DNA of 37,703 nucleotides from Bacteroidota bacterium (GTDB taxonomy: Bacteria > Bacteroidota > Bacteroidia > 2-12-FULL-35-15), in contig CANNHN010000005.1 in the NCBI GenBank assembly GCA_947504725.1, positions 1 through 37,703 on the forward strand, given 5' to 3'. Shown piece after piece: positions 13,829 to 32,840 of this stretch. Every line of letters starts with the position of its first letter. The stretch's first letter is position 1. The notes beneath the pieces were generated by a model. That model searched no databases and was not told the origin of the DNA. It worked only from the letters and a program-made list of their open reading frames with translations. Made by a program: the position numbers and the translations under genes.

Positions 13829-13916
13829 TGTCATTCCGACCGAAGTGGAGGAATCTTTTCCAATGAGAACTAGAATTAATATTGTGCAAGATCTCTCCAC
13901 TTCGGTCGAGAGGACA
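13829..13916. repeat. Palindromic intergenic repeat (GTCATTCCGAC type)
   Basis: The left arm reads GTCATTCCGACCGAAGTGGA and continues GGAATCT. The right arm AGATCTCTCCACTTCGGTCG is its imperfect complement, so CCGAAGTGGA pairs with TCCACTTCGG and the whole can form one long hairpin. The right end (GAGAGGACATG) has drifted from the expected GGAATGACA. It resembles palindromic repeats scattered in many Bacteroidota genomes. It occupies most of the 247-bp spacer between the DUF3467 gene and the C1 peptidase gene. Confidence 0.75.
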
Positions 13917-22881: not shown

Positions 22882-22916
22882 GAGATTGCTTCGGTCATGC
22901 TTCCCTCGCAATGACG
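22882..22916. repeat. Partial copy of the GTCATTGCGAG palindromic repeat
   Basis: GAGATTGCTTC followed by CTCGCAATGACG matches the right third of the full repeats at 29232, 31948 and 32734. The left end, variable hairpin and GGCAATCTC arm are missing. Confidence 0.7.
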
Positions 22917-22934
22917 GTTTTGAAAATACTTATT

Positions 22935-23004
22935 CCATTCTCCATCTCCCATCTCCCATCTCCCATCTCCCATTTTCCATCTCCCATTCTCCATCTCCCA
23001 TCTT
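22935..23004. repeat. Ten-copy 7-bp tandem repeat (CCATCTC)
   Basis: Ten contiguous heptamers follow in exact register. Six are CCATCTC; the others are CCATTCT (twice), CCATTTT and CCATCTT. The array ends 5 bp from the icmF stop codon (minus strand), so it lies in the icmF 3' untranslated region. Heptamer periodicity outside a coding frame suggests slippage-driven expansion. Confidence 0.9.
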
Positions 23005-29231: not shown

Positions 29232-29348
29232 CGTCATTGCGAGTCTTGTCCCGCCCCGAATACGTAGGGCGGGACAGGGTGTGGCAATCTCATCCACGAT
29301 GGACTGACAGTGTTAGTGTGAGATTGCTTCGCTCTGCTAGCAATGACG
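29232..29348 (+). repeat. Palindromic repeat, copy A (117 bp)
   Basis: Ends are CGTCATTGCGAG and AGCAATGACG. After the left end comes a hairpin (TGTCCCGCCC and GGGCGGGACA around a 10-nt loop), then the shared core GTGGCAATCTCATCCACGAT and TGAGATTGCTTC. Copies B and C have the same ends and core but a different inner hairpin. It lies in the divergent spacer between the PF10023-like and DUF218 genes. Confidence 0.9.
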
Positions 29349-29414
29349 GTTTAAAGGAGCATCGTTCTCTTGCAACTGTCATAAATGGTGGAGAAAACTG
29401 CTTTTCGGAGCCGT

Positions 29415-29435
29415 CCCCTCTCCTTTGGAGAGGGG
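29415..29435. repeat. Short palindrome CCCCTCTCC-TTT-GGAGAGGGG
   Basis: A perfect 9-bp stem with a 3-nt loop. It is followed by TTAGG and, 11 bp further, by a T-run. It resembles small G-rich palindromes scattered in Bacteroidota spacers, and may also hinder transcription towards the DUF218 gene from upstream. Confidence 0.6.
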
Positions 29436-29454
29436 TTAGGTCATCATTTTTTTT

Positions 29455-29462
29455 TATATTTG
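29455..29462 (+). promoter_or_regulatory. Candidate DUF218 gene promoter, -7 element (TATATTTG)
   Basis: TATATTTG matches TAnnTTTG exactly. It ends 19 bp before the GTG start codon at 29482, placing the transcript start near 29469. This supports GTG 29482 as the true start, because an earlier one would precede the mRNA. Confidence 0.55.
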
Positions 29463-29481
29463 CCTCCTAATTTTTAAAAAA

Positions 29482-30243
29482 GTGTTTTTTCTACTTTCAA
29501 AATTACTTTCTTTTATAATCAGTCCAATTGTTTGGATCATTAGTTTGCTTTTCGTTTTCGTATATTCTAAAAATGAAAAACGAAGAAAAAAAGCTTTCTA
29601 CTGGGCATTTGGTTTCATCTTATTTTTCTCTAATAGTTTTGTTTTCGATGAATTTGCAAGAGCATGGGAAGTTCCTGCTACACAATACGAAGATTTGGAA
29701 ATGTATGACGTTGCAATTGTTCTTGGTGGAATGAGTGTGTATGACGAAGAATATGAGCGCCCACAGTTTTACAGAGGCGTGGATCGTTTGTTACAAACAG
29801 TTGAGTTATATAAGTTGGGGATGATTAAAAAAATAGTTTTCACAGGTGGCTCGGGAAGAGTTCTTCATCCCGAAATGAGAGAGGGTGAGTATATTAAACG
29901 ATATTTAATATTGATGGGCGTTCCCGAGAAAGATTTTATTATTGAATCGAAATCGCAGAATACCAGAGAGAATGCGTTGTTTACAAAAAATCTGATTGAT
30001 GAGAAAAAATTAAAAGGACGATTTTTATTAATTACTTCAGCCTTTCATATGCGTAGAAGTTTAAACTGTTTTGAAACAGTTGGAATGGAAGTGACGCCAT
30101 ACAGCACCGATAGATATGCTGGTCCACGCAAATTTGAATTTGATCATTTGTTTATTCCAAATAGTTCAGCCTTGAACGATTGGACTACCCTTATCCATGA
30201 GGTAGTTGGTTACATCACATACAAAGTTATTGGCTACGGTTAA
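29482..30243 (+). CDS. DUF218 / YdcF-ElyC family membrane protein
   Basis: The 253-residue protein begins at GTG. Two membrane helices (about residues 5-27 and 38-54) precede a periplasmic DUF218 domain. That domain shows VAIVLGGMSVYDEEYERP (about 77-94), IVFTGGSGRV, SQNTRENALFT and LLITSAFHMRRS, all standard for the SanA/YdcF/ElyC group. ElyC-type members affect peptidoglycan or lipid-carrier metabolism, while others have no known substrate. Its 3' end overlaps that of the converging M1 peptidase gene by 17 bp. Confidence 0.88.
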   Translation: MFFLLSKLLSFIISPIVWIISLLFVFVYSKNEKRRKKAFYWAFGFILFFSNSFVFDEFARAWEVPATQYEDLEMYDVAIVLGGMSVYDEEYERPQFYRGVDRLLQTVELYKLGMIKKIVFTGGSGRVLHPEMREGEYIKRYLILMGVPEKDFIIESKSQNTRENALFTKNLIDEKKLKGRFLLITSAFHMRRSLNCFETVGMEVTPYSTDRYAGPRKFEFDHLFIPNSSALNDWTTLIHEVVGYITYKVIGYG

Positions 30244-31921
30244 ATTCGGCTGGTAACTTCTTATTCTTTTCTGTTCCAAAATACAATTCATCCGAGTTAT
30301 CATAAAAATTTGAATAGGTATTGCTCAAATCAATTGTTTGAAGTTTAGTAGTAGGGTAAAGTGTGATTGTTTTATCACTCACTTTTATTTTAATAGGAAG
30401 TACAAAATCATCACTGGTGTTCTTCCATCGATAATACAATTTATCATTCGTCCAGCAGAATTCTAAAAACGGAGCTTCACGCTTATACAAGTATTGCTTA
30501 AAAAACCAAGAGTAATCTTTTCCTGTTTTTTTGTTTACTAAATCGGTAAATGTTTCTGAATAGATTTCTTTCTGAACATTTTCCATATAAAATGTTTTGA
30601 GGATATCAAAAAACAAAGAATCGTTACTTAGCGTTGTACGCAGTGAATGCAATACCCAAGACCCCTTTCCATAAATATCTCCATCGTGATAATCGAAATA
30701 ACGAATTTCTTTTTGTCTTACAACCGGTCGTTTATTTAAAATTCCAATTCGTTGCCAATACATATAATCCAAATATCCCTTGTATCCCGAAATGCTTTCT
30801 ACAAAAAGGGCTTCACAATAACTGGCAAATCCTTCATGAATCCAAGCGTCAGATAAATCAGCAGCAGTAACGCTATTTCCCCACCATTCGTGAGCCGTTT
30901 CGTGTAGGATTATGTAATCAAATAAATTTTGATAATCGTTTTTATAACCATTTCCATAAGCAATTGCAGATTGATGTTCCATTCCTGCATAAGGAGATTC
31001 TACCAATTTAAAACCATCGCGTTGCCACGGATATGGACCAAATGTTTTTTCGTAAAAGGCTATGTGCTTTTTCACTTGCTGAAAATGTAGTTTAGCTTTT
31101 TCATAATTATAGGACAAAACATAATGGTTGAGCTGGGTTGTTTTCGAAGTGATATCACTTATGTACGATTCGTTTAGCGATTTTAAATTTCCAATATATA
31201 AAGTAACGTTGTAGTTGTTGATTGGATAAGAAATATGCCAATGAAATGTTTTTTTATCAGCAGTGCTATTTGTGTCTTTCAAAACACCATTGCTCACAGC
31301 GACTAAATTTTTCGGAACCGTGATAGTCATGTCTGTGCTGTCTGCTTCATCACTCATGATGTCTTTACTAGGCCACCACATGCTGGAACCTTCACTCTCA
31401 CAAGCTACACCAATCCATGGATTCCCATCTTTGTCTTTTTTCCAAACAAAACCTCCATCCCAAGGTGGACGCTTTGCTGAAATTGGAATGCCTTCATAGG
31501 CGATTATTAAGTTAAAGATTTCTTCTTTTTTTATTTGTCGAGGCATTTTTACAAACACAGCACCTTCTTCTCTTTTAAAAGTAATTGCTTGGTTTTCGAA
31601 CGTTACACTTTTTAAAAGCATGTTTTTGTAAAGATCGATTTGAAGTGTATCGAAATTATTTAGCGCCTTTGCAGTAATTTTTACTTTTCCAGAAATGAAT
31701 TTTTTTGCGGGAACAACTTCAATGTTGATGTCGTTATGCAAAACATCAAAACACGTTCTGTATTTAGTCGTTTCCGCCAATAACTTATTTTGTTTTGTTT
31801 CTTTGGGATATTTTCCTGCTTTTTTTGGATTGTGAACATTGAAATGGATTCCCAACATTCCGCAGGAGGAGAGGAAGAATGGGAGAAGGAGAATAAGGAA
31901 TGTTTTGTTAAAAAATTTCAT
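30227..31921 (-). CDS. M1 family metallopeptidase lipoprotein
   Basis: This 564-residue zinc aminopeptidase has a lipoprotein signal (LSSC, lipid-modified C20). An N-terminal beta domain is followed by the catalytic domain. The substrate-binding variant of GAMEN reads AGMEH (E315). The zinc motif HETAH is at 340-344 with the third ligand E363 in IHEGFAS. It is therefore a surface or periplasmic exopeptidase that probably trims peptides. It ends within the 3' end of the DUF218 gene (17-bp overlap). Copy B of the palindromic repeat lies 26 bp upstream. Confidence 0.95.
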   Translation of the reverse strand: MKFFNKTFLILLLPFFLSSCGMLGIHFNVHNPKKAGKYPKETKQNKLLAETTKYRTCFDVLHNDINIEVVPAKKFISGKVKITAKALNNFDTLQIDLYKNMLLKSVTFENQAITFKREEGAVFVKMPRQIKKEEIFNLIIAYEGIPISAKRPPWDGGFVWKKDKDGNPWIGVACESEGSSMWWPSKDIMSDEADSTDMTITVPKNLVAVSNGVLKDTNSTADKKTFHWHISYPINNYNVTLYIGNLKSLNESYISDITSKTTQLNHYVLSYNYEKAKLHFQQVKKHIAFYEKTFGPYPWQRDGFKLVESPYAGMEHQSAIAYGNGYKNDYQNLFDYIILHETAHEWWGNSVTAADLSDAWIHEGFASYCEALFVESISGYKGYLDYMYWQRIGILNKRPVVRQKEIRYFDYHDGDIYGKGSWVLHSLRTTLSNDSLFFDILKTFYMENVQKEIYSETFTDLVNKKTGKDYSWFFKQYLYKREAPFLEFCWTNDKLYYRWKNTSDDFVLPIKIKVSDKTITLYPTTKLQTIDLSNTYSNFYDNSDELYFGTEKNKKLPAEFNRSQ

Positions 31922-31947
31922 AGTGTAATTTACAATTTTTTTTAGAA

Positions 31948-32046
31948 CGTCATTGCGAGTCGCGCATTTTCGCGCGATGTGGCAATCTCATCCACGATGG
32001 GCTGAAGATGCTGATGTGAGATTGCTTCTCTTCGTTCGCAATGACG
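31948..32046 (+). repeat. Palindromic repeat, copy B (99 bp)
   Basis: It starts CGTCATTGCGAGTCGCGC and ends CGTTCGCAATGACG. The inner hairpin is TCGCGC/GCGCGA with an ATTTTC loop. The core GTGGCAATCTCATCCACGAT is identical to copy A. It has the same orientation as copy A and lies between the M1 peptidase start and the L,D-transpeptidase stop. Confidence 0.9.
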
Positions 32047-32066
32047 CTCCGATTTAAACATTAATG

Positions 32067-32660
32067 TCAATTAAACATCCACAACAAAACAGGTTTTTCA
32101 GATGCTTTTAATTTAGGATCAACAATTCTCATAAAACTATTTGATACAGCCGGACAACCCCAACCTTCGGGTGTGCCATTTGGATAAACTTCATATTCCG
32201 TTACATCGTCCCACGAATGTAAAACGATTTGTCGTTTTAAAGCATTGCTATTGGTGCTTTCTAATCCATGCATTAAATAATTCACATTTATTCCCCAATT
32301 GCTATAACCTCGTTTTCCAATTTTAAATTTTCCAATAGCGGTGCAATGACTATCAGGAGTATTACTAAATTTTGGTTTTTCTTTGGTATACGTTTCTCCC
32401 CAAGGGTTTGAACCACAACCATGCGCACACATTCCTTCCGCAAGAATACTGTCTTTCTTTATATCGTATAAAAATGCGCGTTTTTTTCCAGAGTGAATGG
32501 TCATGTCAATTAAAATACAGAAGTTGGTATTATAACCATTGGCTTTGCAGAAAGTTACAGCATCTTTCGATTTTAGTTTTAAACGCTCAATTGTTTTTGT
32601 ATCCGTTTTGAACGAGAAGAGTGAGATGCAGAAGAGTAGGAGAAGGGAGTTCTTATACAT
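32067..32660 (-). CDS. L,D-transpeptidase catalytic-domain protein (YkuD_2-like)
   Basis: The 197-residue protein has an N-terminal hydrophobic export signal (about residues 5-17). The catalytic pattern of murein L,D-transpeptidases is visible as H131 in YLMHGLE, H148 in IVLHSW and the nucleophile C169 in EGWGCPAVSN. This arrangement fits the YkuD_2 group common in Bacteroidota, which may cross-link or modify peptidoglycan or anchor proteins. The gene is bracketed by inverted copies B and C of the palindromic repeat. Confidence 0.88.
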   Translation of the reverse strand: MYKNSLLLLFCISLFSFKTDTKTIERLKLKSKDAVTFCKANGYNTNFCILIDMTIHSGKKRAFLYDIKKDSILAEGMCAHGCGSNPWGETYTKEKPKFSNTPDSHCTAIGKFKIGKRGYSNWGINVNYLMHGLESTNSNALKRQIVLHSWDDVTEYEVYPNGTPEGWGCPAVSNSFMRIVDPKLKASEKPVLLWMFN

Positions 32661-32733
32661 GTGTATTTTATGCAGGAACGTATATGGTAAAAGAAATATT
32701 GTTACGGAGCAGTAGGTGTAGTCTAATTTAGAA

Positions 32734-32840
32734 CGTCATTGCGAACGAAGAGAAGCAATCTCACGCCAGCATTTTCGGCCCATGATGGAGGAGATTGCCA
32801 CATCCCGTCCCAAGGCCTTGGGACGGGACTCGCAATGACG
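32734..32840 (-). repeat. Palindromic repeat, copy C (107 bp, inverted)
   Basis: Read on the minus strand it has the layout of copies A and B, with CGTCATTGCGAG at the left and TTCTCTTCGTTCGCAATGACG-type sequence at the right, the latter identical to copy B over its last 20 bases. Its inner hairpin is a perfect 26-nt palindrome with half-site TCCCGTCCCAAGG. It is opposite in orientation to copy B. Confidence 0.9.

Follow-up and report, generated by a model that had tools for sequence, protein, structure and literature searches.

Side-arm hairpins of transposase-less CGTC REP dimers are probably overwritten by templated copying in a Bacteroidota lineage

How does a dispersed palindrome keep base pairing at one internal site while holding a different sequence there in each copy? 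The question is raised by three repeats in the window, by which we mean the whole 37,703-nucleotide stretch of Bacteroidota DNA analyzed here. An initial annotation had located these copies and described constant ends, a core of equal length, and three different inner palindromes, and our data confirmed all of these features. The ends read CGTCATTGCGA/TCGCAATGACG in every copy (the right end of copy 1 deviates at one position), the core bounded by GCAATCTC and GAGATTGC is 28 nt long in all three, and the inner palindromes are TGTCCCGCCC/GGGCGGGACA in copy 1, TCGCGC/GCGCGA in copy 2, and a perfect 26-nt palindrome, TCCCGTCCCAAGG/CCTTGGGACGGGA, in copy 3. The arrangement can be written as a unit, CGTCATTGCGA-module-GCAATCTC, where the module may be a short loop or else a hairpin whose sequence varies, and each copy is an inverted pair of such units around a 28-nt spacer; what had been called the inner hairpin site is the loop of one REP unit. 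The features are as follows.

22882 to 22916, minus strand: single CGTC unit with a 16-nt inner part, without a partner.
29232 to 29348, plus strand: copy 1, in which two CGTC REP units are joined head-to-head; it lies between divergent genes (DNA fold z-score of -6.9).
29244 to 29279, plus strand: side-arm module of copy 1, TCTTGTCCCGCCCCGAATACGTAGGGCGGGACAGGG, with a perfect 10-bp stem (from the sequence).
29292 to 29319, plus strand: spacer of copy 1, 28 nt (25/32 identical in the ortholog from the sister species, G035).
29320 to 29348, minus strand: second unit of copy 1, with a short loop.
31948 to 32046, plus strand: copy 2, a CGTC dimer (DNA fold z-score of -4.3).
31960 to 31977, plus strand: side-arm module of copy 2, TCGCGC-ATTTTC-GCGCGA, a compensated variant of TCCCGC-ATTTTC-GCGGGA.
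31990 to 32017, plus strand: spacer of copy 2, 28 nt.
32018 to 32046, minus strand: second unit of copy 2, with the short loop ACGAAGAGAA that it has in common with the short unit of copy 3.
32734 to 32840, minus strand: copy 3, a dimer inverted relative to copies 1 and 2 and also found at the orthologous G035 site (DNA fold z-score of -7.7).
32734 to 32762, plus strand: short-loop unit of copy 3, ACGAAGAGAA (GGAACGAA in the G035 ortholog).
32763 to 32790, minus strand: spacer of copy 3, 28 nt (29/32 identical in the G035 ortholog).
32803 to 32828, minus strand: side-arm module of copy 3, TCCCGTCCCAAGGCCTTGGGACGGGA, the perfect 26-nt palindrome (TCCCGCCTTTTGCGGGA in the G035 ortholog).

All three copies are intergenic, lying among predicted genes for a putative aminopeptidase, a DUF218 protein, an M1 peptidase, an L,D-transpeptidase, and valyl-tRNA synthetase. 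In the predicted DNA fold, the constant ends form a main stem that is continued by GCAATCTC/GAGATTGC, and the module is a side arm at the junction.

Other repeats were observed around these elements. Tandem heptamers resembling CCATCTC/CCATTCT (window positions 22921 to 23004) adjoin the single REP unit, and a palindrome, CCCCTCTCCTTTGGAGAGGGG (29408 to 29440), adjoins copy 1; a palindrome of the latter type also occurs in the genome of another species, G003, in the intergenic interval that matches that of copy 2 (L255, near 8150). A further inverted palindrome of the dispersed-repeat type, TGTC-tagged (TGTCATTCCGACCGAAGTGG...), lies at 13829 to 13916, and TGTCAT-tagged repeats resembling it are nested within the spacers of CGTC dimers in G074, a genome with 628 ends. 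CGTC dimers of G074 (L332 to L351) have their outer 17 to 22 bp tandemly duplicated with short filler, as if ends had been added repeatedly.

The three copies belong to a larger family. The genome (3.4 Mb, 43 contigs) contains 75 exact CGTCATTGCGA ends (40 + 35) versus 2 (1 + 1) for the reversed pattern, so that, together with the fold z-scores, the repeat is far above chance. All 75 ends were retrieved and 70 units were parsed; the exact ends start on the outside with CGTC and then AT, and they are mostly paired head-to-head, about 50 to 200 bp apart. Within a unit, the constant stem ATTGC/GCAAT encloses 8 to ~50 nt, and most units have a CTC tail. The three copies are thus inverted dimers of CGTC-tagged REP units, members of a transposase-less superfamily that is already known; Rfam gave no match for the repeat. 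Among 68 parsed dimers (26 from this genome and 42 from G035), the commonest type combines a hairpin with a short loop (33/68), the partner unit usually having a loop of 8 to 10 nt. Short loops in this genome are GGAACGAA, GCGAAGTGAA, ACGAAGAGAA, and similar sequences. The commonest hairpin module is TCCCGC-ATTTTC-GCGGGA, others being TCACGC/GCGTGA, TCATGC/GCATGA, TCCTCCC/GGGAGGA, and the TCGCGC/GCGCGA of copy 2, and the repertoire also includes double hairpins and long hairpins with a CCCGAGNATCGGG tip. These repertoires are species specific, that of G032 consisting almost entirely of GGGCTTTTCGCCC.

Comparison with orthologous DNA, obtained by a region search across 36 congeners, indicates how the modules change. 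At copy 3, the spacer is conserved in G035 (29/32) and both modules differ (6/10 and 20/31 identical). At copy 1, a spacer that is 25/32 identical accompanies a left module that matches at 20/41 positions, TCTTGTCCCGCCCCGAATACGTAGGGCGGGACAGGG here versus TCCCGCTTTTTAGCGGGA in G035, and the same site carries TTCTGC..GCAGAA in G003 and TCCTCCC..GGGAGGA in G016, in both cases with a spacer not clearly the same as that of copy 1; the four species thus have four different module hairpins. Two further sites behave alike: at C1:15457, the spacer is 33/34 identical and both modules are changed (the right one 7/17), and at C5:139200, the spacer is 27/34 identical and the short module is changed (7/10). 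Orthologous modules differ in length (41 versus 23, 31 versus 22, and 10 versus 8 nt), parts of them show no relationship, and the hairpins that replace them in G035 mostly pair. The relatives in these comparisons, G035 included, are drafts and some are metagenome-assembled genomes, so that repeat misassembly is possible, although a dimer of ~100 bp would fit within a read of usual length. With spacers conserved and modules differing in both sequence and length, the exchange of modules in place is real. It is not universal, since at C1:18205 the differences between this genome and G035 are confined to point changes.

Modules are also shuffled relative to spacers within genomes. Across the 68 dimers of the two genomes, 61/258 unit comparisons (24%) shared a module when the spacers of the two dimers were at least 80% alike, and 12% did so when the spacers were less than 60% alike (Mantel r of 0.11). 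This weak association argues that modules vary largely independently of the remainder of the element and, together with the replacement at orthologous sites, bears out the cassette exchange proposed in the initial annotation. Some modules have candidate donors: there are five occurrences of TCCCGCTTTTTAGCGGGA in G035, and ACGAAGAGAA is present in copies 2 and 3. For the long module of copy 1, there is no visible donor, as it has no second occurrence among the units listed for this genome. On average, the two units of a dimer resemble each other no more than units drawn at random, a result that speaks against frequent copying from arm to arm within a hairpin; two sites, L056:200 and C1:15457, nonetheless look concerted.

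We consider it probable that these elements are REP dimers of a non-autonomous kind in which templated copying overwrites the hairpins of the side arms. The predicted fold of a dimer, as single-stranded DNA or as a cruciform, is a main stem (the constant ends and the constant GCAATCTC/GAGATTGC core) from which one or two side arms project at a fixed position. Since each such arm pairs with itself alone, it could be replaced without disturbing the rest. The new sequence would be copied from other REP units, either through template switching of replication at a stalled hairpin or through ectopic gene conversion via the short constant arms. A factor that recognizes or replicates the folded dimer may read the tag and the lower stem and tolerate any upper hairpin, in which case only side arms that are paired would be kept. 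We infer the copying step, given that no exchange event was seen directly and that the guiding homology is short. What the orthologous sites do show is that replacement, besides mutation, turns over part of the element.

An alternative that we regard as unlikely is ordinary divergence, in which one ancestral hairpin accumulates point mutations and compensation is selected for RNA or DNA structure, with no exchange. Its mutational component is real. Among 84 hairpins with six-base stems (22 distinct arm pairs, from this genome and its relatives), the arms keep 5.27/6 pairs versus 4.38 (standard deviation, 0.13) with arms shuffled, and none of 10,000 shuffles reached as high a value, so that the inner hairpins covary, as selection on structure, the other proposal of the initial annotation, would have it. 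Variants with one change per arm are compensated in three of four cases. TCACGC/GCGTGA, TCGCGC/GCGCGA, and TCCCAC/GTGGGA are compensated variants of TCCCGC/GCGGGA, which also has 12 single-arm variants. Point mutation with compensation therefore occurs, the module of copy 2 being one such variant, and compensatory changes were described in GTAG REPINs by Bertels and Rainey in 2011 (PMC3116915). Derivation from one ancestral hairpin by simple point mutation accounts for copy 2 and for C1:18205. It fails where modules differ wholesale in length or sequence, sometimes to the point of being unrelated, beside conserved spacers, and this contradicts it for copies 1 and 3. The finding of different modules on identical spacers also speaks against it.

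Serial insertion, by which new REP dimers repeatedly enter an old one and mimic exchange, we consider quite unlikely. Dimers with unrelated spacers do occupy the same position at C1:411649, and REP-in-REP nesting and extra terminal ends are common in G074. However, copies 1 and 3, C1:15457, and C5:139200 keep the spacer yet change modules, which is unexpected if whole elements were replaced.

That local selection chose the side hairpins as binding or regulatory RNA modules, such as terminators or mRNA stabilizers, is very unlikely. The folds are stable, and a role for REPs as RNA elements has been proposed (PMC3733652). However, copy 1 lies between divergent genes, an awkward place for a terminator, one site carries different hairpins in four species although its neighboring genes are unchanged, and neither a terminator-like site at the copies nor an Rfam match was found. 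A terminator or promoter role was also considered and rejected: the copies have no T tract and drew no terminator call, and the termination module suggested in the initial annotation is not upheld. A REPIN driven by a RAYT or IS200-like transposase, as for GTAG REPs, is suggested by the dimer architecture, which matches REPINs (PMC3116915), but it is exceedingly improbable, as the tag is CGTC, not GTAG, as PF01797 (Y1, IS200-like), the transposase class covered by our search, is absent from this genome and from G074 despite its 628 ends, and as Y1 and repeat numbers do not correlate over 79 genomes (Spearman coefficient of 0.09, P = 0.44), so that the REP-associated transposase the initial annotation had in view found no counterpart.

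Under the favored reading of copied side arms, the dimers themselves are non-autonomous, and the distribution of copy 2 fits a mobile element of this kind, as initially suggested. Four congeners (G035, G031, G006, and G015) lack its dimer in the orthologous interval, and this interval holds another palindrome in G003 and an unrelated CGTC dimer in G016, which suggests that copy 2 was gained in its own lineage; intergenic DNA is too diverged for exact insertion boundaries to be drawn. In this genome, neither a target duplication, a terminal inverted repeat (TIR) beyond the REP ends, nor a long conserved flank was detected, the flanks showing only a weak extension of 6 to 7 bp (TTCTAA or CTCCGTA outward).

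The dimers of G032 provide a case of dispersal by another route. This genome has 241 ends, nearly all sampled dimers have identical modules, and the dimers sit at one fixed point of a ~199-bp element with imperfect TIRs (TGAGTATCCGGAACTTTGTACCA; L192 to L231), which were found at most copies sampled. Direct repeats of ~8 bp flank the element (6.95/8 positions match versus 5.41 when permuted, with none of 3,000 permutations as high), so that both TIRs and a target duplication surround the dimer. The element was found in 0/35 other genomes of the genus searched, and no autonomous partner was found among the ~30 of 112 TIR matches that came with loci, none of these having a second TIR at gene-length distance. 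With respect to the TIR arms, spacers point either way (20:17), indicating that the core inverts, and one inserted extra module is common to three copies with different spacers. At another G032 locus, L309, the TIR start is that of the element and the interior palindrome is different. Two candidate "empty" elements were rejected as preinsertion sites, both being deletions at 3- to 5-bp microhomologies inside the palindrome. Another transposon can thus carry a CGTC dimer, and in at least this one congener, the dimers disperse by hitchhiking within an unrelated, TIR transposon-like element.

The architecture extends well beyond this genus. When the pattern CGTCATTGCGAG-N(10-40)-TGTGGCAATCTC was scanned against a genome collection, the matches listed included Bacteroidota, Rickettsia, Gammaproteobacteria, Clostridia, Chloroflexi, Spirochaetes, and candidate phyla. 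Inner segments vary by lineage, 29/45 fold better than 95% of their shuffles, and paired examples from other lineages include CCCGC-AAA-GCGGG, CCTTGAC-GCA-GTCAAGG, and CAGCC-GTA-GGCTG, so that a fixed base bearing a freely varying but paired tip is a general feature. Together with the compensated variants, these paired but unrelated hairpins support the view that structure is maintained. The bolder proposal that a dedicated process swaps self-complementary side-arm cassettes among dispersed CGTC dimers in many phyla while the tag, the lower stem, and the spacer stay constant, with shape rather than sequence being inherited, we hold to be unlikely.

A literature search with the exact end sequences returned nothing relevant, and the closest known system is the CGTC superfamily. 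Di Nocera, De Gregorio, and Rocco in 2013 defined CGTC REPs, noted that a transposase was missing, proposed mobilization by other transposases, and divided the superfamily into four families, with Neisseria dRS3 and Rickettsia RPE-4/RPE-6 among its members (PMC3733652). As the superfamily is transposase-less, its spread and maintenance are an open question in the literature. The replacement seen at orthologous sites and the G032 element bring this question within reach of tests in culturable carriers. Our elements resemble the published ones in the CGTC tag, the AT-rich start of the stem, the predominance of head-to-head dimers, sometimes structured spacers, the lack of a transposase, and a spotty distribution that includes Bacteroidetes. 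They differ in that the published REPs have a stem of 8 to 9 bp and a loop of 4 to 5 nt (reported sizes rather than a defining feature of the superfamily) and here the stem encloses 8 to ~50 nt, in many cases a complete hairpin that differs between sites and between species, and in that the tail is CTC instead of the mostly CCA of the published forms (the commonest form, not a definition). Relative to the published loops, the hairpin-bearing form is new, and in the portion of that paper used here, no in-place exchange of modules between species is described for CGTC REPs; the G032 element exemplifies the kind of mobilization these authors suggested. It also resembles classical MITEs in its ~199-bp TIR structure and ~8-bp target duplications, unlike the dimers of the genome studied here.

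REPINs likewise form a hairpin from an inverted REP doublet in which intervening length and pairing outweigh sequence and changes are compensatory (PMC3116915), so that keeping pairing with free sequence is not new by itself; they carry a GTAG tag and a cognate RAYT, whereas the tag here is CGTC, with no link to a Y1 transposase. The functional analogy we favor is with the E. coli REPs (Y, Z1, and Z2), substrates of TnpA-REP, for which the upper stem and loop have a structural role alone (PMC8266576). A known enzyme acts on those REPs, whereas none is known for the CGTC dimers. With their constant base and free side arm, these dimers lend themselves naturally to testing what portion of a folded DNA is recognized.
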